Assembly (NCBI RefSeq): GCF_900105765.1
Contig: NZ_FNTX01000002.1
Location: forward strand, 1,674,001 to 1,738,000
DNA from: Ruania alba
Lineage (GTDB): Bacteria > Actinomycetota > Actinomycetes > Actinomycetales > Beutenbergiaceae
Length of the DNA stretch: 64,000 nucleotides
Direction: 5' to 3'
Position 1 is the stretch's first letter. Every line of letters begins with the position of its first letter. Shown here piece after piece: positions 49,525 through 64,000 of this stretch. The translations under genes were made by a program, and so were the position numbers. The notes under the pieces were generated by a model, which was given only the letters and a program-made list of their open reading frames with translations, was not told the origin of the DNA and ran no database searches.

Positions 49525-52500
49525 GTGCAATCACAGATTGATACGGCGCGCAGACGGACGCGTCGCCGGTGGCAGAGGCCGCTGGCAGGAGCGACGGCAG
49601 CCGTTGCGACGGTCGCACTGGGGGCCCTCGGGCTCTCCGGCACGTTGTCGCCGGCAGCAGCGCTGGCGACAGACACGTCGGAGGCCGAGGGGCGTCTGCT
49701 CACCGGCGGTGGGGCGATCAACCTCAACGACATCGTTGCACTGGACGGTGCCTACAGCGCCGACCCGACAGCGCCCGGCGAGGTCCAGAACCCGCTGTCG
49801 CTCGAGGTTCTGAACTCGCTCAACCTCGACCTTGGCAGCGGGGTCCAGCTCCTCGGCGACAACGGGGTACTTGCGGTCGGTGCGCTGGCGCAGTACGCCC
49901 GCACCGGTGACGGCGAGGTGCCGTTCGCTTCGGCAGGTGCGATCAACGCCGACGGCTCCATCGCCGTGGGCGGGTCGGGTCCCGGCGACAACGCCTACCT
50001 CGACCTCACGCCACTGCTGACGCAGGCCGGTCTGGACACACTGCTCGACCAGGCTCGCGTTGAGCTCGGCGCGCTCTCGGCCACGGCCACCACTGATGTG
50101 GACGGCAACCCGGTCGGTGACTACCAGATCGCTGACGGCACGCTGATTCTGAGCAGCCCGACGATTGCCGGGCTCAGCGGCACGCTGTCGGACAGCCTGG
50201 GCACGGTGTCTGACCCGATCAACGGCCTGGTCGGTGAGGGTGGCGCGATCGACACCACGCTCAACCCGCTGCTGGTCGACCTGACCGACACGCTCAACAC
50301 ACTGCTGCTGGGCGTCGGATCGATCGACGAGCTGGGTGTCACGGCCACGGTCGATCTCGACCTGCAGGCGGCACTGACCGCGGTTCTCGAGGAGCCGCTG
50401 ACCAGCCCGGACTCGGCAGTCACCATCGACCTGAGCACCGGCGAGGTGAGCGTCGACCTGGCTCGCCTGGTGGCGGACACTCAGGGTGGCGACTACGACG
50501 GCACGCTGAACGGTCTCCCGGTGAACACCGAGGTCCTGGGTCCGGACGTGATCCAGGCTGCGCTCGATGGTGCGATTGGTTCCACGCTGGACCAGATCCC
50601 CGCGCTCGTCGTCAACGCGATCACCGATGCGTTGCACGCGGCGGACGTGAACATCGCTATCACCGGTGACATCGCCCTGCTGGGAGTGTCGGTCGGTACC
50701 GTCGACGTCCAGCTGTCTGGCACGCTGGGCGACTTCGCGGGCGTGGAAGGCTCCGTGCCGCCCACCGTCGACACCTCCGGCACAACCGTCGCCGGTCTCC
50801 CCGTGGGAACGATCGTCGAGCCGATCCTGCAGGCTGTCACCGACACGATCCTGCCGGCTCTGGTCACCCCGATCAGTGAGGCGATCACCGACGAGGGAAC
50901 GCTGGACACGATCTTCCGCCCAGCAGTGGAGGCTCTGAACACGGCGCTCTCGCCGCTGGCTCAGTTGATCACGGAGAACCTCGTCTCGCTGACCGCCAAC
51001 GTGCAGGAGCAGCCGGGTGACTTCGTTCACCCGGACGGCTTCGATGACGATTCCTTCACGCAGCGCGCGCTGCAGCTCACTCTGCTGCCAACCACCACGG
51101 CAGCTCAGGTGAGCATCCCGTCGGCCACGGTGCGTCTCGACACTGAAGCAGGCTCGGACCCCGACACGGACGTGGACGCGTCCACGGACCCGGACAGCTC
51201 GACGGACCCGGACAGCTCGACGGACCCGGACAGCTCGACGGACCCGGACAGCTCGACGGACCCGGACAGCTCGACGGACCCGGACAGCTCGACGGACCCG
51301 GACTCCTCGACGGACCCGGACAGCTCGACGGACCCGGACAGCTCGACGGACCCGGACTCCTCGACGGACCCGGACTCCTCGACGGACCCGGACAGCTCGA
51401 CGGACCCGGACAGCTCGACGGACCCGGACTCCTCGACGGACCCGGACTCCTCGACTGACCCGGACAGCTCGACGGACCCGGACTCCTCGACGGACCCGGA
51501 CTCCTCGACGGACCCGGACTCCTCGACGGACCCGGACTCCTCGACGGACCCGGACTCCTCGACGGACCCGGACTCCTCGACGGACCCGGACTCCTCGACG
51601 GACCCGGACTCCTCGACGGACCCGGACTCCTCGACGGACCCGGACTCCTCGACGGACCCGGACTCCTCGACGGACCCGGACTCCTCGACTGACCCGGACT
51701 CCTCGACGGACCCGGACTCCTCGACTGACCCGGACTCCTCGACGGACCCGGACTCCTCGACGGACCCGGACTCCTCGACGGACCCGGACTCCTCGACGGA
51801 CCCGGACTCCTCGACGGACCCGGACTCCGAAACGACTGCGGACACGAACACCAACGCCTCTGCATCGGCGTCGGCGTCAACGAACGCTGACGACGACAAC
51901 AACGCGGCGGCTGAAGCGGCTGCTGAGGCTGCGGCCTACACCGACACCGACTCGAGCGCATCGGCTGAGTCCGACGTGAGCGCGGCGGCGGCGGCGCAGG
52001 CAGCTGCTGACGAGGACGCCTCACAGGACGCCTCGGCGGATGCCACCACGGATCCGGATGCTGCAGCTGCAGCGGCGGCTCAGGCGGCGGCCAACTCGGA
52101 CGCCGACCCCGACACCGCTGCGGACACATCCGCAGAGATGTCGGCCAACGCTGACACCGACGCCACGTCGGAGTCCGCTGCGGCGGCTGAGGTGGCGGCT
52201 AACGCGGATGCGTCGACCGACGCCTCGGCGGCGGCTTCGGCGAACGCGAGTTCGGACGCTGACTCCGACGCTGATGCTGGTGAACTCAGGGCCACGGTGC
52301 GCTACCAGAGCATCGTCCGTGACACGGGTATCGAGCAGGAGGCCTACGGCTTCGGGTTCGAGCCGGGCGAAGAGGTCACGGTCACCGTGAACTCCACCCC
52401 GTTCGACATCGCTGCGGTCGCTGACGAGTCCGGCAACGTGACGGTCGCATTCCCGATCGACGCGGAGTTCGAGCTCGGCGACCACTTCGTCGAGATGACG

Positions 52501-52695
52501 GGTGCTGAGTCTGGGGAGATCCCCGCTGAGAACCTCGACACCGACTTCGTGGTGACTGAGGTGACCTCCGGTGGCGGTTCGTTGCCGGACACCGGTGCGG
52601 AGTTCGATGAGATGTTCGGCCTCATCGCCGCAGCGCTCATGTGCCTGGGTGCAGGGATCCTGCTCTCCGGCCGGAAGCGGAGCACAATGAGCTGA
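49525..52695 (+). CDS. LPXTG-anchored surface protein with long Asp/Ser repeat
   Basis: 1056 residues. A long signal peptide (basic [10 protein letters not shown] then hydrophobic to about 48) leads into a globular region (about 60-545) that is Leu/Asp/Thr-rich and fits the choice-of-anchor G kind of domain. Then comes a 36-unit STDPDS repeat (about 553-768), an Ala/Asp/Ser spacer (about 769-915), a small beta domain (about 920-1012) and the sorting signal: LPDTG at 1020-1024, a hydrophobic helix and the basic tail RKRSTMS. A sortase should link it to peptidoglycan; none is in the window. The repeat is probably an extended stalk. Start GTG 49525, 6 bases behind GGGGGA. Confidence 0.88.
51181..51828 (+). 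repeat. 36 tandem 18-bp units coding STDPDS
   Basis: Exactly 36 units of 18 bases. The last Ser codon is AGC in units 1-6, 8, 9, 12, 13 and 16 and TCC in all others; units 17-36 are almost identical, except ACT for ACG in units 29 and 31 (also unit 16). So the distal half looks newly expanded by slippage or unequal exchange, and length is likely to vary between strains. Confidence 0.95.
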
Positions 52696-52717
52696 TCTGC
52701 GAGAGCGGATGAGCACT

Positions 52718-52770
52718 GATCGAGGTTCGGTCCCGGGGTATCTTCCTTACCCCGGGACCGAACCTCGATC
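52718..52770. terminator. Strong hairpin terminator after the LPXTG gene
   Basis: A perfect 23-bp stem (52718-52740 with 52748-52770) with a 7-base loop, 22 bases after the stop. It isolates the surface-protein gene from the DUF5819 gene. Confidence 0.85.
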
Positions 52771-52812
52771 GTTCATGTCTCCTGGCATCATCGCCCTGGC
52801 GGGAAAGCGACA

Positions 52813-53652
52813 ATGACGAGCAAGGACATCGATACAGCAGAAACATCGGCCGGCGAGAAGTCGTCGGACGATGCGGTTGTCGAGCACACATCCGATCGGT
52901 CGCGCACAGCGATGACGCCCCTCAAGCGGGTCATCGTTGTCGTGGCTGTCCTGTTCACCGCGTGGCACGTGTTCGCCACATTCCTCTGGATTGCACCTGC
53001 CTCTGGACTCCGGCAGGTGGTCCCGGGTGAGTTGTTGCGTGACTATATGATCCCGATGCACGGGCAGAGTTGGAGTGTCTTCGCCCCAGAGCCGATCAAC
53101 GGTGACTACCGCCTTCAGGTCCGTGCCACCCTCAACCGGGACGGTGAGGAGATCGAGACCGAATGGGTCGACGCGACAGCAGCCGAGCTCGACATGATCA
53201 CTCACAACCTCTTTCCGCCCCGTGCAGCGATCAGTGCCAACCAAGTCGCCGGTACGTTCCGGGGGGCCTATCTCGACCTCAACGATGAGCAGGAGGAGAT
53301 CGCGGCGCTCGGCTACTACAGCGGCGACGACTGGCGTCAGCGTCTGGAGTCGGCTCTCCGCTCGCATGGCAATGCCGGCGCGGTTGCCGAGTACCTGCAA
53401 GCCGAGGAGCTCGCCAACGCGTACGCCACGCAGGCGGCTTACGCGATGTGGGGCGAGGACGTCGTGTTGGTGCAGTTCGTCATCAGCCGCCAGAACGTGG
53501 TGCCGTACGGGCAGCGCAACGATCCCGACGCCGAACGCCCCGCTGTCCAGCCGTATGTCACCGGTTGGCGTGGTCTCATCGAGTACCCGGGCCAATCGCG
53601 GGAACGGTTCGCGGAGATCTTTCGCCCGGCGGTCGAGGAGTCGACCCGATGA
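52813..53652 (+). CDS. DUF5819-family protein
   Basis: 279 residues: a soluble N-terminus, one membrane helix (about 38-60, RVIVVVAVLFTAWHVFATFLW) and an outside domain with HGQSWSVFAPEPINGDYRLQVRA and WVDATAAE, the DUF5819 pattern. It is always found before HTTM-type genes in actinobacteria, as here: its stop overlaps the next ATG (ATGA). It may be the substrate-holding or secreted partner of the HTTM protein, but the function is unknown. Confidence 0.85.
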   Translation: MTSKDIDTAETSAGEKSSDDAVVEHTSDRSRTAMTPLKRVIVVVAVLFTAWHVFATFLWIAPASGLRQVVPGELLRDYMIPMHGQSWSVFAPEPINGDYRLQVRATLNRDGEEIETEWVDATAAELDMITHNLFPPRAAISANQVAGTFRGAYLDLNDEQEEIAALGYYSGDDWRQRLESALRSHGNAGAVAEYLQAEELANAYATQAAYAMWGEDVVLVQFVISRQNVVPYGQRNDPDAERPAVQPYVTGWRGLIEYPGQSRERFAEIFRPAVEESTR

Positions 53653-54809
53653 GTTCGCGCGCCCGCACCCTCGCCCGTACCAGCACCCGCGCCGCGGGGG
53701 CTCTTCTCGCAGATCTCTACGGCGCAGTCTCGTCCTTGGTGAACCGTACGCTGGCGTGGACCGAGAACTGGCTCGTCGGCGCCAAGCACGCCAGGTACGG
53801 ACTTGCCGTGACGCGGATACTGCTCGGGCTGACGGCACTCGGCCTGCTGATTTCCAACTGGCGGACCCGTTACTACGCCTTCGGTAGTGGCTCGGTGTGG
53901 AACGGCGAGGCAGCCCAACCTCTGAGCGATTTTCCTCAGATCCCCCTGTTCAGCATCTTCCATCGGGTGGCGCTGAACGACTGGTCCTTCACCATCCTCT
54001 ACCTCGCCCTTGCATGGCTTGCCATCCTGGTCATCTTGGGCTGGCGGATGAAGATTGTGCTGCCGATCTTTTTCGTGGCGTGGACGTCGTTCATCGAGAT
54101 GAACGACACACTGGGCGACCAGGGTGACAACATGTTCCGCATCACCGTGCTGGCGTTGCTGTTCGCCGACACCGCCGGGAGATGGTCCCTGGATGCCCGT
54201 CGGCGTGCTGACGTCGAGAAGGAGACCGGTCCCTGGTTGCGGCGAGTGTGGAACGGTGAGCCGTGGGTGCCCGCGTGGTTGACGAACCTGTCCCACAACC
54301 TGGTTCTGGTCGCTGTCACGGCGCACGTGTGCTTCGTGTATGCCTCCGGTGCCCTGTTCAAGGCCGGTGGTGCGCCGTGGCAGCACGGGTACGCCATCTA
54401 CAACCCGCTGCAGACGGTGCGTTTCGGATCCTGGCCGGAGCTGACCGATGTGCTCACCGCCTGGGCGCCGGTCGTCACGATCATCTCGTGGAGCTCGATC
54501 ATCCTGCAGATGTGCTTCCCGATGATGCTGCTGTGGCGCCCCACCCGGGTGATCGGATTGTTTGGGATCACCTCCTTCCACGTGGGGATCGCCGTGCTGA
54601 TGGGGCTGCCGTGGTTCTCCCTGGCGATGATCGCCATCGACGCGATCTTCATTCGCGACGTCACCTGGCGGTACATCTCCGACCGGATCGGTGGCGCCTG
54701 GCGGAACGCGCGCGCGGACGTGGAGGGCTCACCCAGGAAGCGGAGACCGGACCGAGAACGCCCCTCCGATCGCGCGCCTGCTGCCGAGCACATCTCGGCC
54801 TCCGGCTGA
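53649..54809 (+). CDS. HTTM-domain (gamma-carboxylase-like) membrane protein
   Basis: 386 residues with about seven membrane helices. The HTTM domain is a distant relative of vitamin K-dependent gamma-glutamyl carboxylase. Seen features: ARYGLAVTRILLGLTALGLLI, SFTILYLALAWLAILVILGW, the loop FIEMNDTLGDQGDNMFRI, HNLVLVAVTAHVCFVYASGALFKAGGAPWQHG and the basic C-tail. In the animal enzyme a Lys drives catalysis; I cannot tell whether an equivalent exists here. The ATG overlaps the DUF5819 gene, so they form a pair. No function is proven for bacterial members. Confidence 0.85.
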   Translation: MSSRARTLARTSTRAAGALLADLYGAVSSLVNRTLAWTENWLVGAKHARYGLAVTRILLGLTALGLLISNWRTRYYAFGSGSVWNGEAAQPLSDFPQIPLFSIFHRVALNDWSFTILYLALAWLAILVILGWRMKIVLPIFFVAWTSFIEMNDTLGDQGDNMFRITVLALLFADTAGRWSLDARRRADVEKETGPWLRRVWNGEPWVPAWLTNLSHNLVLVAVTAHVCFVYASGALFKAGGAPWQHGYAIYNPLQTVRFGSWPELTDVLTAWAPVVTIISWSSIILQMCFPMMLLWRPTRVIGLFGITSFHVGIAVLMGLPWFSLAMIAIDAIFIRDVTWRYISDRIGGAWRNARADVEGSPRKRRPDRERPSDRAPAAEHISASG

Positions 54810-54841
54810 CCGGGTACCGGGTGAGAAGGCAGACTGGACCT

Positions 54842-56320
54842 ATGGGACGAACCAGCACGGACGTCGTCGTGATCGGTTCCGGACCGAACGGGCTGACCGC
54901 TGCGGTGACGCTCGCCCGCGCCGGGCTCGAGGTGACGGTGCTGGAAGCGCAGACCGTGCCCGGCGGTGGTGCGCGCACTCTCGACTCGCCCCTGGCCGAC
55001 GGGGTTCGCCACGACGTCTGCTCGGCCGTGCATGCCCTGGCCCTGGCCAGCCCGGCCTTCCGTGAGTTCGATTTCGCCGCCCGCGGCGTGCAGCTGATCA
55101 GCCCGGAGACCTCCTACGCCCAACCCCTCGACGGCGGTCGTGCCGCCATTGCGTATCGCTCGCTCGGGCGGACCGTGGCCGAGCTCGGCACCGACGGGCC
55201 CGCCTGGCACCGGCTCTTCGGACCGCTCGTGGAGAACGCGGAGATGCTCACCGCGCTCGCGCTCGGGAACCGGCGCGAGCTGCCCGAGGGTGCACTGAGT
55301 GCCCGCGGGCTGGGTGCCATGGCTGCCGCTGCCGCACGCTTGGTGGAACAGGGCAGCCCCGCGTGGAACCTGCGCTTCACCGACGACCTCGCCCCGGCGC
55401 TGTTCACCGGTGTGGCCGCGCACGCGATCTCGACCCTGCCGAGCCCGGCCGCGGCCGGCACCTCGATCATGCTTGCCACGCTGGCGCACACGGTCGGGTG
55501 GCCCATCCCCGTGGGTGGGTCCGGGGCTCTGACGGCGGCCCTCATCGCTGATCTGGAAGCGCACGGTGGTCGCGTGGTCACCGACCATGAGGTGACTGCC
55601 TGGCACGAGCTGCCTCGTGCCCGCGCCTACCTCGCCGACCTCTCCCCGGCCGCCTTGGTGCGCATCTGGGGGGACCGGATGCGCCCGTCGGTGCGGGATG
55701 CGCTGGCCCGGTTCCGGTACGGCGATGCCGCCGCGAAGGTGGATTTCGTACTGTCCGGCCCGGTGCCCTGGGCGGACGAACGCGTCGGCGGCGCCGGTAC
55801 GGTGCACGTGGGCGGGCTGCGGGAGGAGATGGCCTTTGCCGAGGCAGAGGTGGCCGCCGGCCGGGTGCCCGAACGCCCGATGATCCTGTTCTCCGACCCC
55901 ACCATTGCCGACCCGGCGCGGGAGGTCGGGGGACTGCGCCCGGGATGGGCGTACACCCACGTGCCGGCATGGAGCGGCGCAGACGTGACGGAGGCCGTGA
56001 CCGCACAGATCGAACGCTTCGCACCCGGCTTCCGGGACGTCGTCGTGAGCGCGCGGTGCACGCCCGCGAACCAGATGCCGGAGCACAATGCGAGCTATAT
56101 CGGCGGTGACATCGCCTCCGGTGCCCTCTCGGTATGGCAGATGGCCGCCCGGCCGCGGCCCACGCTCGACCCGTACGCGACCTCGATCCCGGGTGTGTAC
56201 CTGTGCTCGCAGTCAACACCGCCCGGGCCGGGTGTGCATGGCATGGCGGGCTGGCACGCCGCCCGCCGTGCGCTCACGCAACGCTTCTCCCTCCCCACCC
56301 CCTCCCTCGCCCCACGCTGA
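54842..56320 (+). CDS. Phytoene-desaturase-like FAD oxidoreductase
   Basis: 492 residues. The N-terminus has the dinucleotide loop VVVIGSGPNGLTAAVTLARAGLEVTVLEAQTVPGGGARTL, the CrtI-type signature; C-terminal GVYLCSQSTPPGPGVHGMAGWHAAR completes the FAD site. Such proteins desaturate or isomerise polyenes (carotenoid or retinol saturase types). It is longer in the middle substrate domain than needed for assignment and no crt genes lie near, so its substrate is not known. ATG 54842 is chosen just before the strand. A hairpin lies 40 bases past the stop. Confidence 0.85.
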   Translation: MGRTSTDVVVIGSGPNGLTAAVTLARAGLEVTVLEAQTVPGGGARTLDSPLADGVRHDVCSAVHALALASPAFREFDFAARGVQLISPETSYAQPLDGGRAAIAYRSLGRTVAELGTDGPAWHRLFGPLVENAEMLTALALGNRRELPEGALSARGLGAMAAAAARLVEQGSPAWNLRFTDDLAPALFTGVAAHAISTLPSPAAAGTSIMLATLAHTVGWPIPVGGSGALTAALIADLEAHGGRVVTDHEVTAWHELPRARAYLADLSPAALVRIWGDRMRPSVRDALARFRYGDAAAKVDFVLSGPVPWADERVGGAGTVHVGGLREEMAFAEAEVAAGRVPERPMILFSDPTIADPAREVGGLRPGWAYTHVPAWSGADVTEAVTAQIERFAPGFRDVVVSARCTPANQMPEHNASYIGGDIASGALSVWQMAARPRPTLDPYATSIPGVYLCSQSTPPGPGVHGMAGWHAARRALTQRFSLPTPSLAPR

Positions 56321-56360
56321 CCCCGCTCACCGCTCGCAGTATGACCACCTCAGCCCGCGT

Positions 56361-56420
56361 GCCGAGCGCAACCTCGTGCGGCGGATCATGCGGGCAACGC
56401 CGCACAAGGTTGCGCTCGGC
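56361..56420. terminator. Long hairpin ahead of groEL
   Basis: A 22-bp stem with one mismatch (C/T at 56374 versus 56407) closes a 16-base loop: GCCGAGCGCAACCTCGTGCG... at 56361-56382 with 56399-56420. It ends the oxidoreductase transcript or could be a palindromic repeat. The gap 56321-56631 holds this and two CIRCE sites; no gene is seen there. Confidence 0.7.
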
Positions 56421-56448
56421 GGGGTTCGAGGAGCGTTTTCGCCCGCTG

Positions 56449-56475
56449 CTTGCACTCTCGGCCTGAGAGTGCCAA
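56449..56475. promoter_or_regulatory. CIRCE operator 1 (HrcA site)
   Basis: CTTGCACTC, nine bases, GAGTGCCAA: one base at the outer edge of each arm differs from the perfect TTAGCACTC-N9-GAGTGCTAA consensus. HrcA represses heat-shock chaperone genes here. It lies 157 bases before groEL. Confidence 0.85.
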
Positions 56476-56483
56476 TAATGGCG

Positions 56484-56510
56484 TTAGCACTCTCAGCGCG
56501 AGAGTGACAA
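56484..56510. promoter_or_regulatory. CIRCE operator 2 (HrcA site)
   Basis: TTAGCACTC, nine bases, GAGTGACAA: a second, better left arm, 8 bases after the first operator. The two sites cover the groEL promoter region and would give tight HrcA control. Confidence 0.9.
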
Positions 56511-56547
56511 CTGTGGTCAGCGAGACGAGGCGCCGGCCGGTGCGTGA

Positions 56548-58266
<1,719 letters not shown>

Positions 58267-58303
58267 GAAGCCAGCACCGCCTGAGCCGTTGAGCTCAGTT
58301 GCA

Positions 58304-58346
58304 TCGCCGAAAGCCCCCGGTTCCCTTGCGGAGCCGGGGGCTTTCG
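58304..58346 (+). terminator. Terminator after groEL
   Basis: A stem of 17 bp with one G-T pair (58308-58324 with 58330-58346) and a 5-base loop, followed by no long T-run. The core is GC-rich (AAAGCCCCCGG with its complement). Confidence 0.85.
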
Positions 58347-58420
58347 CGTACCCAGGCGGGGGGACTCCTCCCCATCTGTCGCACTGCCGGTTCCATACCG
58401 GCTTCGGTATGGTGACCGCC

Positions 58421-59059
58421 ATGTCAGGTCAGGGTGCGTCGCCGTCTCCTGCGCCGCCTGACCCACACCGGGACCGCGCTTCGGGCTCGCACCCGGTAGC
58501 GGAGGGCTCGCTCCGGGTGGAGTTGCGTCCGTCCGCCGTCGGCAGGGCGGGGATGGTGGTACTGGCACTGCTGCTGATCGTGTTCGGCGGCGCGATGGTG
58601 GCAGCCGCCACTGTCATCGACCAGTGGGCCGATCCGAACGGCATCGCCGCCGGCATCGTCGGCATAGTGATTGCTGCGTCCGGGGTGCTGGGGCTCGTCG
58701 TGATGCCGCGGGCTTTGGCCCCTGCCTGGCTCACCTTCCGGCCGGACGCCGTGGAGTACGTCGGAAGGCAGTTCACGTTGTCCGTGCTGTGGCAGGACGT
58801 GGAATGGCTGTACCTCTGCGCGCCCGGCAAACTGAGTCTGCTCGGCGTGCGGTGGAGCCCGTTGGTGCAACTCATCATCCGCCTCGGACCGGAGGCCGCC
58901 GCGGCCAATGGCGCCGCTCGAGGGCGGGTGGGCAGGCGACCGGGGCTCGTCGATCGCACGCGGGTCGTGATGTTCTGGGCGGGCAAGGAATCGAAGCAGG
59001 CCGTGGCGCTGGGCTGCGACACCTACGGCGGGGGCCGCTTCCACGGGCCTCGCCTGTGA
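58421..59059 (+). CDS. Membrane protein with PH-like soluble domain, unknown
   Basis: 212 residues. A Pro/Ser-rich N-terminus, then two membrane helices (about 43-65, MVVLALLLIVFGGAMVAAA; and about 77-100, IAAGIVGIVIAASGVLGLVVM) and a C-terminal beta-rich region of about 110 residues (AWLTFRPDAVEYVGRQFTLSVLWQDVEWLYL) that recalls the bacterial PH-like domains of unknown role. I cannot name the family. ATG 58421 is taken; ATG 58409 is also in frame. Confidence 0.6.
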   Translation: MSGQGASPSPAPPDPHRDRASGSHPVAEGSLRVELRPSAVGRAGMVVLALLLIVFGGAMVAAATVIDQWADPNGIAAGIVGIVIAASGVLGLVVMPRALAPAWLTFRPDAVEYVGRQFTLSVLWQDVEWLYLCAPGKLSLLGVRWSPLVQLIIRLGPEAAAANGAARGRVGRRPGLVDRTRVVMFWAGKESKQAVALGCDTYGGGRFHGPRL

Positions 59060-59078
59060 GCACGAGCGTCCGGCGGGG

Positions 59079-59978
59079 TCATGCCGTGGAGTCCGGCCCG
59101 CCGCGCAGTGCGGTGAGCTCGTCGGTGAGGTTCGTGCGCGCCCGGTCGGCCCAGCGTGCTGCACCACGAGGTGTATGGAAGAGCGGCTCCTGGGCAAGCA
59201 GGTGCTGCACGACGGCGGAGCGTCCCGTCTGCCAATCGGCGTCACCGACGTGTGCGTACTCCTCTCTGACCTGCCGGAGGTAGCGCCGGTAGCCGGCCTC
59301 ATCCCGGCCCAGCACGGCGAGGTCGGCGTCACAGAGCAGCGCAGCGTTCCGGTCATGCTCGCCGACCTGGTGCTCCGCCGTCACCCGGACCAGGCGCGCC
59401 ACCTCGGCCACCTCCGGCCCGGAGATGCCTGTCCGCGGGAGGACATTCTGGGCGAGAGCCGCCGAGTCCCGCTCGTCCTGCCCGGCCACGCCCTGGTACA
59501 CGGCATCATGGAACCAGGCCGCGAGCACCACGGACCGCGGCGGCTCGTCCGGCGCGCACAGCACGTCGAGGGCCTCGAGCACATCGAGCAGATGCGCCGT
59601 CGTGTGATAGTGCCGATGTTCCTCGTCCCACCGGTCGATCAGCTCAGCTCCGAGGCTCGCCGATCCCGGCAGGGTCCGTTCCCAGCGATCGGTCAGCACC
59701 GACCGCCGGTGCGCGGGCCGATCCCGGGCCGGGACCCGCAGACCGCTCCCGCGCAACCGGCGGATGAGCTCGCGTGCTGAGACCCGCTCAGCACCGCGCG
59801 CCACGAGCTCGGCGTGCAGCCGCTCCGGTACGTCGTAGTGGTCCCGGTCGAACGCACGCTCGCTCACCCCCGCGGCCGCCGCGAACTCGTGCAGCTCGGT
59901 GAGCGAGGCGTCGGAGACCAGGTGCGAGAATCTGGTGCCGTGCGCCGGCCACATCGGGGGATCGATGAGAAGGGCCAC
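59079..59978 (-). CDS. DUF4031 and HD-domain fusion protein
   Basis: 299 residues. The first 80 match DUF4031 (MALLIDPPMWPAHGTRFSHLVSD, FDRDHYDVP). The rest (about 95-295) is an HD-superfamily domain of the predicted phosphohydrolase type: HYHTTAHLLDVLEALD and WFHDAVY with His157-Asp158, later CDADLAVLGRDEAGY. It has the metal ligands needed to hydrolyse a phosphoester; the substrate is unknown. It is similar to the protein at 60454 in the second part, so the two are paralogues with the WXG100 gene between. No signal peptide. Confidence 0.85.
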   Translation of the reverse strand: MALLIDPPMWPAHGTRFSHLVSDASLTELHEFAAAAGVSERAFDRDHYDVPERLHAELVARGAERVSARELIRRLRGSGLRVPARDRPAHRRSVLTDRWERTLPGSASLGAELIDRWDEEHRHYHTTAHLLDVLEALDVLCAPDEPPRSVVLAAWFHDAVYQGVAGQDERDSAALAQNVLPRTGISGPEVAEVARLVRVTAEHQVGEHDRNAALLCDADLAVLGRDEAGYRRYLRQVREEYAHVGDADWQTGRSAVVQHLLAQEPLFHTPRGAARWADRARTNLTDELTALRGGPDSTA

Positions 59979-59999
59979 GCCTCCCAGGGTAGGCGCCGG

Positions 60000-60290
60000 T
60001 CAGCGCGCGAACATGCGCATCGTGTTCGACTCCGCGCCTTCGTACTCGCGTGCGCCCGCATCCAGTGCCATGGAGATCTGCTCCAAGGAACTCTCCACCT
60101 GCTGCTGCGTGGCGCGCCAGTCGGTCAGCAGCCCGGTGAAGGCGGTGGATGCGTTCCCACGCCAGGAGCTCTGCAGGGCCGTGAGGTGCCGCATCATGTT
60201 CGTCACCTCGGTCTGGATCACGGTGGCGGAGTTGCGGGCGTTCGCTCCCGCGCGAGCCACTTCCGCGCTGTCAACCTCGAATCGGGCCAT
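60000..60290 (-). CDS. WXG100-family protein (ESAT-6-like)
   Basis: 96 residues of two helices with a W-R-G turn: SSWRGNASTAFTGLLTDWR matches the WXG motif (Trp-Arg-Gly). Such proteins are ESX/type VII secretion substrates that form dimers. The ATG at 60290 follows GGAGG by four bases, so I do not use the longer frame to 60326. No EccC-type ATPase or other ESX gene is in the window, so the apparatus must lie elsewhere. Ends ...YEGAESNTMRMFAR, without an obvious YxxxD/E tail motif. Confidence 0.87.
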   Translation of the reverse strand: MARFEVDSAEVARAGANARNSATVIQTEVTNMMRHLTALQSSWRGNASTAFTGLLTDWRATQQQVESSLEQISMALDAGAREYEGAESNTMRMFAR

Positions 60291-60453
60291 CTCGTCCTCC
60301 TCAGATCGCGGGCCTGCCCGGTGCACGGCCCGACACTGACGACGCTAGGCGGGACCGTCCGCCGCGGTCGGGAAGGTATCGAGGGGGTGTGGACGGGCGC
60401 GCATCGGTGCGCGCACTGTGCACAACTGTGGTGCGGACGCCGCGTTCGGCGCC

Positions 60454-61455
60454 TCAGTGCCGCCGGGTCACGGGGTGGTGCTTGATTGAGGGCATCTTCG
60501 GTGGCCGGCTCAACGACGGGATGTCCCGGCCGCGGTCGCGGCTCTCCCTCGGCTCCTCGTCCGGAGCGTGCTCGGTGTGTGGTGGTGCTTGGTTGCCCTG
60601 GTCGGTCCCTCGTTCGGCGGCCGGGTCGCGTTCGGAGGGGGTGGAGTCAGTCTCGGATCGGGGAGTGTCCTCAGGGGGCGGCTCGTTCTCAAACGCCTCA
60701 GGTTGAGCCGGGGAGGGGTCGTCCGTCTCGCCGTGGGGGGTCGATTCGTCCCGCGGGGGCAGCTTTTCCAGCTTCGCGGTAAGCCGGTCGAGCTCGGCCG
60801 CGAGATTCTCCCGGGCTGCGTCTTCCCACGGCTGAGCCATGGGGCTCTTGAACAGCCGGTTCCGGTTGAGCAACTTCGTCACGATCGCCAGGCGCGCTTC
60901 GACGTAGTCCCGATCCGGGATGTGCTGGTACTCCTCGCGGACCTCGCGCCGGTACGCCTGGTACCGCTGCGGCTCGGCCGCGAGGCCGCCGAGGTCGGCG
61001 TCGCAGAGTGCCTGCGCGTCGATGTCGTCTTTCGGGGCGGAGTGCCGGGCAATCCCGATGATGAGCATGGAGACGCGCTCGACGATGTCCTCGGGGACTC
61101 CGAGCTCGGTGAGCTCGGTGCGGGCGAGCTCGGAGGAGGCGACTTCGTCCACGCCGCCGCGGTGGGCGTACGCCTGACGAGCGGCGGCGTCGAACGCGGC
61201 ACCGTGGTACCAGGCGGCGATGCGCACCACGTCCGGGTTGTGCGTCTCCGGTGCGAGCTCGTCCACGCGAGCGAGCACCCCGATCAGGCGTTTGAGGTTG
61301 TGGTGGATCCTGCTCGGGTCCGACCACCGGGTGATCAGCCGCTCCCCGTAGGAGTCGAGGGTGGCCCGGTCAGCGGTCGCTCCCACTGCCTCCAGGCTGC
61401 GTCGCCATGCGGATAGAACCCATCCTGGTGCGTCGATGACGCCCATCGCGCTCAC
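60454..61455 (-). CDS. HD-superfamily-like protein with degenerate HD motif and long tail
   Basis: 333 residues. The first 220 follow the same plan as the HD part of the protein at 59079: RIHHNLKRLIGVLARVDEL, AAWYHGAAFD, CDADLGGLAAEPQRY and EEYQHIPDRDYVEARLAIV. The HD motif Asp is replaced by Gly (His84-Gly85), so metal binding may be lost or changed. The last 110 are a Pro/Glu/Ser/Asp-rich, probably disordered tail. The start is GTG 61455 or ATG 61446. A hairpin GCGCGCA/TGCGCGC at 60397-60414 follows the gene. Function is unknown. Confidence 0.75.
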   Translation of the reverse strand: MSAMGVIDAPGWVLSAWRRSLEAVGATADRATLDSYGERLITRWSDPSRIHHNLKRLIGVLARVDELAPETHNPDVVRIAAWYHGAAFDAAARQAYAHRGGVDEVASSELARTELTELGVPEDIVERVSMLIIGIARHSAPKDDIDAQALCDADLGGLAAEPQRYQAYRREVREEYQHIPDRDYVEARLAIVTKLLNRNRLFKSPMAQPWEDAARENLAAELDRLTAKLEKLPPRDESTPHGETDDPSPAQPEAFENEPPPEDTPRSETDSTPSERDPAAERGTDQGNQAPPHTEHAPDEEPRESRDRGRDIPSLSRPPKMPSIKHHPVTRRH

Positions 61456-61613
61456 GTTCCTCGTTCACTGTCGATCACGGTCACGTCATCGTAGACCCGT
61501 TGCAGGTGTGGGGCAGGCCGTCTGTTCGGTGCGCCACCACAACGGTCGGTTCTGTCAGTGGACTGTCATCACTGTCACAACGGGCCGAGCGAGACCGCGA
61601 CTACCCTGGATTC

Positions 61614-62099
61614 ATGGCAGTCGGCGTACCAGCGGTAGTGATCACGGTCTCGGACCGGTGTGCTGCCGGTGCGCGCGAGGACCGTTCTGGTCCGGCCGCG
61701 GCTGCACTGCTCGGCGATGCCGGTTACTCCGTGGCCCCGGTGACCGTCGTGCCGGACGGGGCGGACGCCGTCGAACAGGCGGTTCGGGCCGCCCTCGACC
61801 AGGGTGCCCGCCTGGTGCTCACCACGGGAGGGACCGGAATCGCCCCGCGGGACCGTACGCCGGAAGGCACAGCGCGCGTGCTGGACCGGGAGTTGCCGGG
61901 CATTGCCGAGCAGATCCGCCGCTGCGACGCTGACACGGTGCCCACGTCGATCCTCAGTCGCGGTGTGGCGGGGGTGGTCGGTGTGGCCCTGGTGGTCAAC
62001 GCCCCGGGTTCGGTGAACGGGGTGACCTCCGCCGTGCAGGTGCTGCTGGCCGTGGCCCCGCATGTGCTGGACCAGCTCGACGGCGGTGATCACCCGTGA
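61614..62099 (+). CDS. MogA/MoaB-family molybdopterin protein
   Basis: 161 residues of the MogA/MoaB fold: VVITVSDRCAAGAREDRSGPA, LVLTTGGTGIAPRDRTPE (adenylation loop) and VVNAPGSVNGVTSAVQVLL. It adenylates molybdopterin before metal insertion. The ATG at 61614 is chosen as the start just before the first strand. Its stop overlaps the first GTG of the moaE frame (GTGA at 62096-62099). It is first of a moaB/mog-moaE-moaA group. Confidence 0.88.
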   Translation: MAVGVPAVVITVSDRCAAGAREDRSGPAAAALLGDAGYSVAPVTVVPDGADAVEQAVRAALDQGARLVLTTGGTGIAPRDRTPEGTARVLDRELPGIAEQIRRCDADTVPTSILSRGVAGVVGVALVVNAPGSVNGVTSAVQVLLAVAPHVLDQLDGGDHP

Positions 62100-62292
62100 G
62101 CGCGAGGAGCCCCCGTGTAGGGACGCCGAGGGACGAGGTGTACCGGAGCGAGGCACCGGAGGGCGCACGGAAGACAAGCCCCGTGAGCGCGAGGAGCCCC
62201 CGTGTAGGGACGCCGAGGGACGAGGTGTATCGGAGCGAGGCACCGGAGGGCGCACGGAAGACAAGCCCCGTGAGCGCGAGGAGCCCCCGTGT
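62096..62292 (+). repeat. 87-bp tandem repeat, two copies plus 23 bases
   Basis: Copies begin at GTG 62096, 62183 and 62270, each GTGAGCGCGAGGAGCCCCCG; the first two are 87 bases and differ at only one base (C/T, 62143 versus 62230), the third matches for 23 bases and then becomes the normal moaE start. 87 is a multiple of three, so the frame stays open and each copy adds 29 residues. Confidence 0.95.
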
Positions 62293-62710
62293 GGCGATCG
62301 CCCGAATCTCACCCACTGTCCTCGACATCGCCGCCCATCAGGACGCCGTCACAGGACCGCAGGATGGTGCCCTAGCCAGTTTCGTGGGGACCGTGCGCGA
62401 CCACAGCCCGGACGCGGCCGGGCAGGTGCAGCGCCTGGAGTACGTGGCGCACCCGGCGGCCGAGGAGGTGCTCGAGCAGCTCGCTGCCCAGGTGAGCGCA
62501 CGGCACGACGGCGTCACGATCGCCGTCAGCCATCGCACCGGTGATCTGGACGTGGGGGAGGTGGCCATCGTGGCCTGCGCTGCCTCGGCACACCGGGCGG
62601 CCGCCTTCGACGCGTGCCAGGATGTGGTGGAGACCGTCAAGGCGGAGTTGCCGATGTGGAAGAAGCAGGTTCTCGTGGACGGGTCACACACGTGGGTGGG
62701 TGCACTATGA
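62096..62710 (+). CDS. moaE: Molybdopterin synthase catalytic subunit with repeated N-terminal extension
   Basis: Makes molybdopterin from precursor Z with MoaD. From GTG 62096 it has 204 residues; from the third in-frame GTG at 62270 it has 146, the usual MoaE length. The MoaE core has SFVGTVRDHSPD, HRTGDLDVGEVAIVA and LPMWKKQVLVDG with its catalytic Lys pair. Residues 1-58 are two 29-residue repeats (start MSARSPRVGTPRDEVYRSEA) that have no known domain. Translation coupling with the preceding stop favours 62096, but 62270 may be the functional start. Its stop overlaps the moaA ATG. moaD is not adjacent. Confidence 0.88.
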   Translation: MSARSPRVGTPRDEVYRSEAPEGARKTSPVSARSPRVGTPRDEVYRSEAPEGARKTSPVSARSPRVAIARISPTVLDIAAHQDAVTGPQDGALASFVGTVRDHSPDAAGQVQRLEYVAHPAAEEVLEQLAAQVSARHDGVTIAVSHRTGDLDVGEVAIVACAASAHRAAAFDACQDVVETVKAELPMWKKQVLVDGSHTWVGAL

Positions 62711-63726
62711 CCGCCGTCTCCGAACACCTGGCCCACCCGATGGTCGACCGGTTCGGCCGGGTGCACCGCGACCTGCGGATCTCTCTGACCGACAAGTGCA
62801 ACCTGCGCTGTGCCTACTGCATGCCCCCGGAGGGTGTGCCGTGGCTGAGCAAGAACAACATCCTCACCACCGACGAGCTGGTCCGCGTGGCCGAGGTGGC
62901 GGCGGTGCTGGGCATCGAGGAGGTCCGGCTCACCGGCGGTGAACCGATGCTGCGGCAGGACGCTGTGGACGTGGTCCGGCGGATGGCAGCGATCGAGGGA
63001 CCGTCCGGTCCGCTCGAGGTGTCCATGACCACGAACGGGATGGCGCTGCCCAAGCATGCCGCCGACCTGGCCGCTGCCGGGCTGGCGCGGGTGAACATCA
63101 GCCTGGACACGCTCAGCAAGGAACGCTTCCACGAGCTGACCCATCGGGACCGGCTCAGCGATGTGCTCGCCGGGATCGATGCGGCGCTCGCGGCCGGGTT
63201 GAACCCGGTGAAGATCAATGCCGTGGCGATGCGGGACGTCAACGACGACGAGCTGGTGGACCTGGTGCGCTTCGCCGCCCGCTCCGGATGCGAGATGCGG
63301 TTCATCGAGCAGATGCCGCTGGATGCCGGGCACGTCTGGTCCCGGGTGAGGATGGTGCGCGGCGAGGAGATCCTCGAGTCGCTGGAGCAGGCCTTCGAGC
63401 TCACGCCACTGCCGGGCCGTGGCGCTGCCCCGGCGGAGCGCTTCCTCGTCGACGGCGGACCCACCACCGTGGGCGTGATCCGTTCGGTGACGAAGCCGTT
63501 CTGTGGGGCGTGCGACCGGGTGCGGATCACCGCCGACGGACAGCTGCGGAACTGTCTGTTCGCCCGGGAGGAATCAGACCTGCTGACGGTGCTGCGCTCC
63601 GGCGGGAGCGACGACGACATCGCCACGCTCATGCACCGCTGCATCGCCGGGAAACTGCCCGGGCACGGCATCGACGACCCGGGTTTCCTGCAACCGGACC
63701 GCCCGATGAGCGCGATCGGTGGCTGA
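62707..63726 (+). CDS. moaA: GTP 3',8-cyclase (MoaA)
   Basis: Radical-SAM enzyme that starts molybdopterin synthesis from GTP. The 339 residues contain the first cluster DKCNLRCAYCMP, the core LTGGEPMLR, and the C-terminal 4Fe-4S cluster site CGACDRVRITADGQLRNCLF, with the tail ending SAIGG (the two glycines needed for substrate entry). ATG 62707 overlaps the moaE stop. Length and order are standard. The next gene overlaps its end. Confidence 0.97.
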   Translation: MTAVSEHLAHPMVDRFGRVHRDLRISLTDKCNLRCAYCMPPEGVPWLSKNNILTTDELVRVAEVAAVLGIEEVRLTGGEPMLRQDAVDVVRRMAAIEGPSGPLEVSMTTNGMALPKHAADLAAAGLARVNISLDTLSKERFHELTHRDRLSDVLAGIDAALAAGLNPVKINAVAMRDVNDDELVDLVRFAARSGCEMRFIEQMPLDAGHVWSRVRMVRGEEILESLEQAFELTPLPGRGAAPAERFLVDGGPTTVGVIRSVTKPFCGACDRVRITADGQLRNCLFAREESDLLTVLRSGGSDDDIATLMHRCIAGKLPGHGIDDPGFLQPDRPMSAIGG

Positions 63727-64000
63727 CCTGCCGCTCGGGGTGTTACCCCGCCTGCATGACGCTCTTGCAGCCCACGGCGCCGTAGCCCTCGGTGGTTCGG
63801 GGCTGATGCGTGCGTTGGGTCTGGACGTCGCGGTCAACGACTGGGATCTGGTCACCGATGTCGATCCTGCGGTGGTGAGCGCGGTGCTTGAACAGCTCGG
63901 GCTGCCTGCACAGCAGGTCGAGGGGGACAGTGCCCAGTTCGCCACGCGGGCGTTGTTCGAGGTGGCCGATCCGGAAACGGGCGGCGGGATCGATGTGCTG
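63719..64000 (+). CDS. Nucleotidyltransferase-like protein, 3' end outside window
   Basis: 94 codons are seen, open to the window edge. The start is GTG 63719 overlapping the moaA end by 8 bases. VALGGSGLMRAL followed by VNDWDLVTDVD resembles the GS-x(n)-DxD pattern of minimal nucleotidyltransferases. Cytosolic. A leucine TTA codon lies at about 63743, rare in this GC-rich DNA. I cannot name the family from the fragment. Confidence 0.6.
   Translation, partial: MADLPLGVLPRLHDALAAHGAVALGGSGLMRALGLDVAVNDWDLVTDVDPAVVSAVLEQLGLPAQQVEGDSAQFATRALFEVADPETGGGIDVL

Follow-up and report, generated by a model that had tools for sequence, protein, structure and literature searches.

Genes of the locus

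The window, the whole 64,000-nucleotide stretch of Ruania alba DNA that was analysed, contains three minus-strand genes between groEL and mogA. Gene A (59079-59978, 299 aa) encodes a DUF4031 part (residues 4-76, 59751-59969; Pfam DUF4031, 2.6e-30) fused to an intact HD domain, and the codons of its His157-Asp158 were read from the sequence at 59505-59510. The next gene (60000-60290, 96 aa) is a WXG100 gene. Its start was placed at the ATG behind AGGAGG, and the protein has a WRG motif and a C-terminal YEGAE, which corresponds to YxxxE. With about 100 aa and a WxG motif, it scores above the cut-off in both Pfam (1.5e-17) and NCBIfam. Gene B (60454-61455, 333 aa) encodes an HD-fold core (residues 21-228, 60772-61395), which was the basis of the alignments and trees, followed by an acidic low-complexity tail (residues 229-333, 60457-60771). 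This tail of about 105 residues is rich in Ser, Pro, Glu, and Asp. The HD motif of B is replaced by His84-Gly85 (codons 61201-61206). An earlier note on this DNA had described the fusion with its intact HD motif, the His-Gly protein with its tail, and the WXG100 gene between them on one strand, and these descriptions hold.

B-type proteins with His-Gly are called HG here, and family members with intact His-Asp are called HD. Families of the window's order are given codes (f1, f3, and so on), with f1 being the window's own family. The length of the HG tail varies by lineage, from 36-327 residues in f1, f3, and f13 to 0-20 in f10.

At the far end of the block, groEL (56632-58266) lies on the opposite strand. 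On the other side, mogA, moaE, and moaA (61614-63726, plus strand) are the start of the molybdenum genes that separate HG from two-component genes in this genome. The gap between groEL and A holds a plus-strand frame of 211 aa (58424-59059) with no family match above cut-off. Among the loci searched, relatives of this frame were found only in L077 (= L113) and L079. An 87-bp tandem repeat (62093-62292, 2.3 copies, 99% match) is present in the gap between mogA and moaE. No RNA family reached its gathering score within 50000-64000. Promoter and terminator scans of 58400-61700 found none, which is weakly informative in a GC-rich actinobacterium.

Homology and predicted fold of A and B

A and B can be aligned with 37% identity over 192 aa (E 9e-30), and a profile-profile comparison gave an E value of 3e-55. 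The two proteins are thus homologous, which excludes the lack of homology that the earlier note had named as a reason to abandon its proposal. In searches with Pfam models, neither B nor the HD part of A matched any domain at its cut-off. At E 0.01, the Pfam HD model matched 5 of 32 HD rows and 1 of 38 HG rows. B is named by neither Pfam nor NCBIfam. It was only matched by a phage-protein family, PHROG 19425, which is labelled phosphohydrolase. Altered HD proteins are easily missed by family databases, and B is an example of this.

An AF2 model of HG, built from seven sequences, has a mean pLDDT of 90.4. Foldseek matches to this model were weak, with a best value of 1.5e-3 and none at E 0.001. 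VIA-align was used for a second look at the Foldseek list. Among the 50 matches listed for HG, catalytic domains of class I phosphodiesterases gave Z 15.2-16.3 over 208-221 residues. For the HD part of A, such domains gave Z 16.5-17.3 over 202-214 residues. No phosphodiesterase model of Pfam matched A or B up to E 1. The DUF4031 part of A was poorly modelled, with pLDDT mostly 30-50. B is a homologue of HD proteins, and the model predicts an HD-type helical fold for it.

Distribution, phylogeny, and selection

A total of 24 genomes of the window's family, 149 of its order, and 296 of its class were searched. The motif was read in 60 HG genomes, which are the window, 58 others, and Flaviflexus massiliensis (L114); the last was counted with f3 from its tree position only. 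His-Gly was found in all 60 of these genomes, which represent six families of one order. HG is present in 23 of the 24 genomes of the window's family. The 24th (G012) has no HG; it has an HD match in a 198-aa frame and no WXG100 protein over the family cut-off (best E 0.009). The order sample contains HG in 47 of 149 genomes and in 6 of 20 family codes. A match was also present in 28 other genomes of the order, and the 20 that were read all have HD. The class scan matched 146 of 296 genomes. Outside the order, HD was found in all 42 distinct genomes read, of 135 matched. Among the listed class-scan matches, those outside the order reached at most 195 bits, compared with 306-334 for two HG matches. 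Viral contigs contained no confirmed HG relative, and two distant HD loci were found in them. PADLOC gave no defence match for the locus up to 0.01.

The aligned rows consist of 60 HG and 94 HD, with no other letter at the variable position. Six HD rows come from second loci in genomes already represented. Trees were built with the H and D/G columns removed, and the root was not inferred. HG forms one clade (SH-aLRT 99-100 in two trees), and its place is with HD proteins that stand alone, from this order and from others. A sits in a different clade of 33 rows (support 96), all of which are DUF4031 fusions except L095 and L101. The change from Asp to Gly probably arose once, in an ancestor within this order. 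A recent duplication giving rise to A and B was also considered and has no support from the tree.

In all 21 comparisons made within f1, HG shows higher conservation than HD. The dN/dS values are 0.05-0.30 for HG versus 0.21-0.35 for HD (five comparisons each). B is under purifying selection. Given this greater conservation and the low dN/dS, it is not a decaying gene.

The proposed pairing of A and B

The earlier note had read A as a catalytic copy and B as a dead copy, possibly its regulatory partner, with the WXG100 gene as a third member of the unit. In support of such a partnership, A and B are homologous and are found in one block in most of the window's family. At 20 of 22 f1 loci, the block continues on the same strand with the DUF4031-HD fusion. 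The exceptions are L078, which is at a contig end, and L094, a locus without WXG100. In four of the 20 loci, 1.8-4.3 kb separates WXG100 from the fusion. Against the partnership, A and B belong to separate clades, and a same-strand HD copy in the block is seen only in the window's family. Two f3 genomes carry the HD copy on the opposite strand; at the other HG loci DUF4031 was found alone or was not found. No HD copy was found in the fetched stretches of the f9, f10, f13, and f20 HG loci, and HG is the sole family member seen in 10 of 10 f10 genomes (E 0.001). As a general rule, a dead partner for A is thus largely refuted and is very improbable. What stands of the earlier reading is that B is a conserved altered copy beside a WXG100 gene. 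The three-gene unit was rejected as a general module because only f1 has an HD copy in the block on the same strand, because the two proteins form separate clades, and because the ten f10 genomes show HG only.

Intact HD genes and separate DUF4031 genes are often neighbours on opposite strands in other actinobacterial orders (L131, L133, L136, L138, L146, L154, L156, L163, L164, L169, L170, and others). The two are fused in the window's family and in f6. Because this arrangement of HD next to a separate DUF4031 gene is so common elsewhere, A looks like the product of a fusion between adjacent genes. Adjacency in other orders and fusion in f1 and f6 suggest a functional link between DUF4031 and the HD family.

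The altered active site

The metal ligands of mononuclear HD phosphatases follow the pattern H...HD...D. In YpgQ these are H29, H58, D59, and D124, and H25 is near the site, as described in the review PMC8177086. The first ligand was mapped to the second His of HxxxH (A His129) by the 3dto alignment and the YpgQ numbering. Phosphodiesterase motifs favour this same histidine, and we take the last ligand to be A Asp219, partly from phosphodiesterase and SpoT motifs. All ligand counts given here use this mapping, which was made by sequence and partly by known motifs. The first His of HxxxH had been considered as a ligand and was dropped on the YpgQ numbering and the phosphodiesterase motifs; the corrected mapping lowers the ligand retention of HG.

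A has HHDD at the aligned positions and so carries the H...HD...D motif. The same is true for 93 of 94 HD rows, with one gap. The 60 HG rows have HHGD (31), RHGD (15), HHGE (8), HHGH (5), or RHGN (1). The window's B does not have the motif; it is RHGD, and therefore keeps two of the four ligands. All 46 HD rows compared have Thr at the position of A Thr200, and none of the 60 HG rows does. Arg78 and Asp146 of B are present in all 60 HG rows, compared with 12 and 9 of 46 HD rows, respectively. Arg49, His52, His84, and Asp152 of B are also kept in all 60. Metal ligands other than the HD aspartate are relaxed in some HG lineages. To judge from the sequences, the conserved residues fit a protein whose pocket was kept and whose catalysis was lost.

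HG could still be an enzyme that acts on a different substrate through a rearranged metal site, made up of two histidines and a carboxylate. The HHGD rows, which include all 20 of f9 and f10, and the HHGE rows agree with this, as do the four invariant residues just named. Some residual metal binding may persist, because 31 of 60 rows keep three of the four ligands, and lineages with HHGD may have a changed metal site. Against an enzyme, 16 of 60 rows have Arg at the first ligand position, six have His or Asn at the last, and none keeps the Thr of the HD proteins. No single metal site fits the whole family, since the ligands vary and the Thr is lost in all 60. An HG enzyme is considered rather unlikely.

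The neighbouring WXG100 gene

Counting only the families sought, the next same-strand gene after HG is WXG100 in 51 of 59 relatives and in the window (52 of 60). L042 has it on the opposite strand, and it was not found in the HG loci of L043, L060, L061, L062, L064, L094, and L114. The earlier note had held that relatives without the WXG100 gene would point to a chance grouping; at eight of the 60 loci no WXG100 gene lies downstream of HG on the same strand, and the gene is in place at the rest. Those WXG100 proteins of the loci that were aligned keep WxG and YxxxE-type ends. They are putative type VII secretion substrates.

HG could possibly serve as a chaperone or adaptor of this neighbouring substrate. 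Such a role would agree with the position of the gene, including the one further locus with WXG100 on the opposite strand, and with the retained ends of the proteins. Occurrence across genomes argues against it. In the order sample, WXG100 orthologues were found in 41 of 47 HG genomes and in 85 of 102 others (p 0.63), so they are common without HG. Co-occurrence of HG with WXG100 was rejected on these counts, which show no enrichment, and A is no general partner. In addition, four genomes (G025, G099, G112, and G138) keep HG with no WXG100 match and no EccC match. A chaperone or adaptor role thus appears quite unlikely.

An EccC match was missing at E 1e-20 in 8 of 149 order genomes. Among the other 43 HG genomes, only G035 (89% complete) has HG and WXG100 with no EccC match. 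The lack of a WXG100 match and the lack of an EccC match are associated among the 47 HG genomes (Fisher p 2.8e-5); because the four genomes lacking both share one clade, the joint absence may be one loss.

The window's genome has EccC-like ATPases, none of which is over the TIGR03925 cut-off. A frame of 1325 aa with FHA and an FtsK/EccC-like ATPase is present on contig C1 of this genome (L124:4986-8963, at about 577-581 kb), and all WXG100 matches of the genome are on the other contig. A separate type VII-like cluster is found on contig C2 (L122:7885-13282, at about 1.532-1.537 Mb). In it, a frame with FHA and one for an EccC-like ATPase precede a WXG100 gene and a further small gene. In three f3 genomes whose EccC matches are all weak, the sole WXG100 match is that of the HG locus.

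The wider neighbourhood

In 31 of 59 relatives, HG is preceded on its own strand by a response regulator and a histidine kinase, which the earlier note had overlooked. By family, the pair is present at 10 of 10 loci in f9, 5 of 5 in f20, 2 of 2 in f13, 8 of 10 in f3, 6 of 22 in f1, and 0 of 10 in f10. PspA is found further upstream in 18 of the 31 kinase loci, and some stretches end too early to show it. A candidate HG start is 5-129 bp past the kinase stop in 20 of the 31; the gap is 1.5-2.1 kb in five f3 loci and one f20 locus. HD genes, too, have the kinase upstream at the f2 locus, the two f18 loci, one f15 locus, and one f17 locus. By position, WXG100 is the closest companion of HG, and the regulator-kinase pair is its usual upstream neighbour outside f10 and the derived part of f1.

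The window's genome possesses the same genes past the window end. A kinase orthologue (54% identity) is about 14 kb upstream of HG on the same strand, with a response regulator, and PspA is at about 20 kb. Between HG and the kinase are mogA, moaE, moaA, moeA, and a binding-protein transporter. On contig C2 (L188:3287-10009, at about 1.741-1.748 Mb), moeA, a MarR-type regulator, and the binding-protein transporter lie between the two-component genes and mogA. Since they separate mogA from the two-component genes, an older arrangement seems to have been broken up by the molybdenum genes.

Other neighbours are found more widely than the kinase pair. In the fetched stretches near HG, groEL is present in 44 of 59 and DUF4031 in 39 of 59, both commoner than the pair; mogA is present in 15 of 59. 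In f10 (L045, L047, L048, L052-L056, L058, and L059), the genes facing HG are instead a cold-shock gene and DUF3027, and 9 of the 10 loci have a CAP-domain gene beyond these. Two f10 genomes were tested for the kinase (E 1e-60) and PspA (E 1e-20), and neither was found; HG and WXG100 are still present in both. The kinase circuit is thus not required everywhere, because HG persists in these two genomes and has no upstream kinase in 28 of the 59 fetched stretches. No single partner explains HG everywhere, because HG outlives each neighbour in some lineage.

The gene neighbourhood can reflect slow rearrangement. It is possible that an ancestral gene order was kept by inertia and that HG has a housekeeping role that has nothing to do with its neighbours. 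Some f5 and f17 genomes and one of another order (L104, L109, L110, and L169) have HD, DUF4031, WXG100, and groEL together without HG, and the outliving of each neighbour by HG points the same way. Against inertia, WXG100 is kept beside HG at 52 of 60 loci, while groEL and DUF4031 are missing more often from the fetched stretches, and the spacing between kinase and HG is operon-like in the 20 loci with a short gap. Inertia, like a surviving enzyme activity, is judged rather unlikely.

Proposed role of the HG protein

The preferred reading is that B is a disabled phosphodiesterase-like HD protein that became an accessory regulator of an envelope-stress locus. The probability of this reading is put at roughly 0.4, and it is offered tentatively. 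An ancestral metal-dependent HD phosphohydrolase would have had its HD aspartate replaced by a fixed glycine. HG would then be a non-hydrolysing, probably ligand-binding accessory protein. In its compact form, the locus has the order PspA, response regulator, histidine kinase, HG, WXG100, and DUF4031, with groEL facing. HG could tune or read out the envelope-stress circuit in the cytosol, and the WXG100 protein could be the exported part of the same response. That HG lost hydrolase activity, that it binds a ligand, and that it acts in signalling are inferences, as is the ancestral form of the locus. A more specific form makes HG the third component of a two-component envelope-stress system, frozen by the Asp-to-Gly change and sensing nucleotides, that links PspA and the kinase to the WXG100 substrate. 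This form is decidedly unlikely.

No description of the HG family or of its locus was found in the open-licence literature, a scope in which such a result is weak evidence of absence. The family has one fixed residue, one clade, and strong selection, and the order of regulator, kinase, HG, and WXG100 is seen in many relatives. It therefore makes a clear case in which to test how a regulator may arise from an HD phosphohydrolase. The locus is also a lead on the control of WXG100 genes outside type VII clusters.

Comparison with known systems

In the MtrAB-LpqB system, an accessory gene follows a regulator-kinase pair, and its product, LpqB, is a lipoprotein. HG resembles it as a putative accessory gene behind such a pair. 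It differs in that HG is not expected to be a lipoprotein and in that the kinases of L037, L065, and L034 score 197-199 bits, with the NCBIfam MtrB cut-off at 450. PspA is found near a histidine kinase and a response regulator in operons of Actinobacteria, according to PMC11237479. PspA, kinase, and regulator likewise share one neighbourhood in 18 of 59 HG relatives and in the window's genome. The main text of PMC11237479 contains none of the terms 'HD domain', 'phosphohydrolase', 'ESX', and 'groEL'.

The WXG100 protein shares Pfam and NCBIfam scores above cut-off, WxG, and YxxxE with the WXG100/EsxA type VII substrates. It differs from them in the position of its gene, near groEL and flanked by HG and A, where no gene of type VII machinery was recognised alongside. 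Both A (4.5e-24) and B (1.1e-18) resemble the phosphohydrolases of PHROG 19425. HD phosphohydrolases of the YpgQ/YedJ group (3gw7, 2pq7, 3dto, and 3djb) were matched by the HD profile at E 1.4e-5 to 0.012. A search of PDB sequences with the HG profile yielded no HD chain. The window's B differs from this group in lacking the HD aspartate and the first ligand histidine. Class I cyclic nucleotide phosphodiesterases differ in sequence, with 9-14% identity among the rows listed; PDE2, PDE5, and PDE10 are the top fold matches of the A and B models (Z 15.2-17.3).
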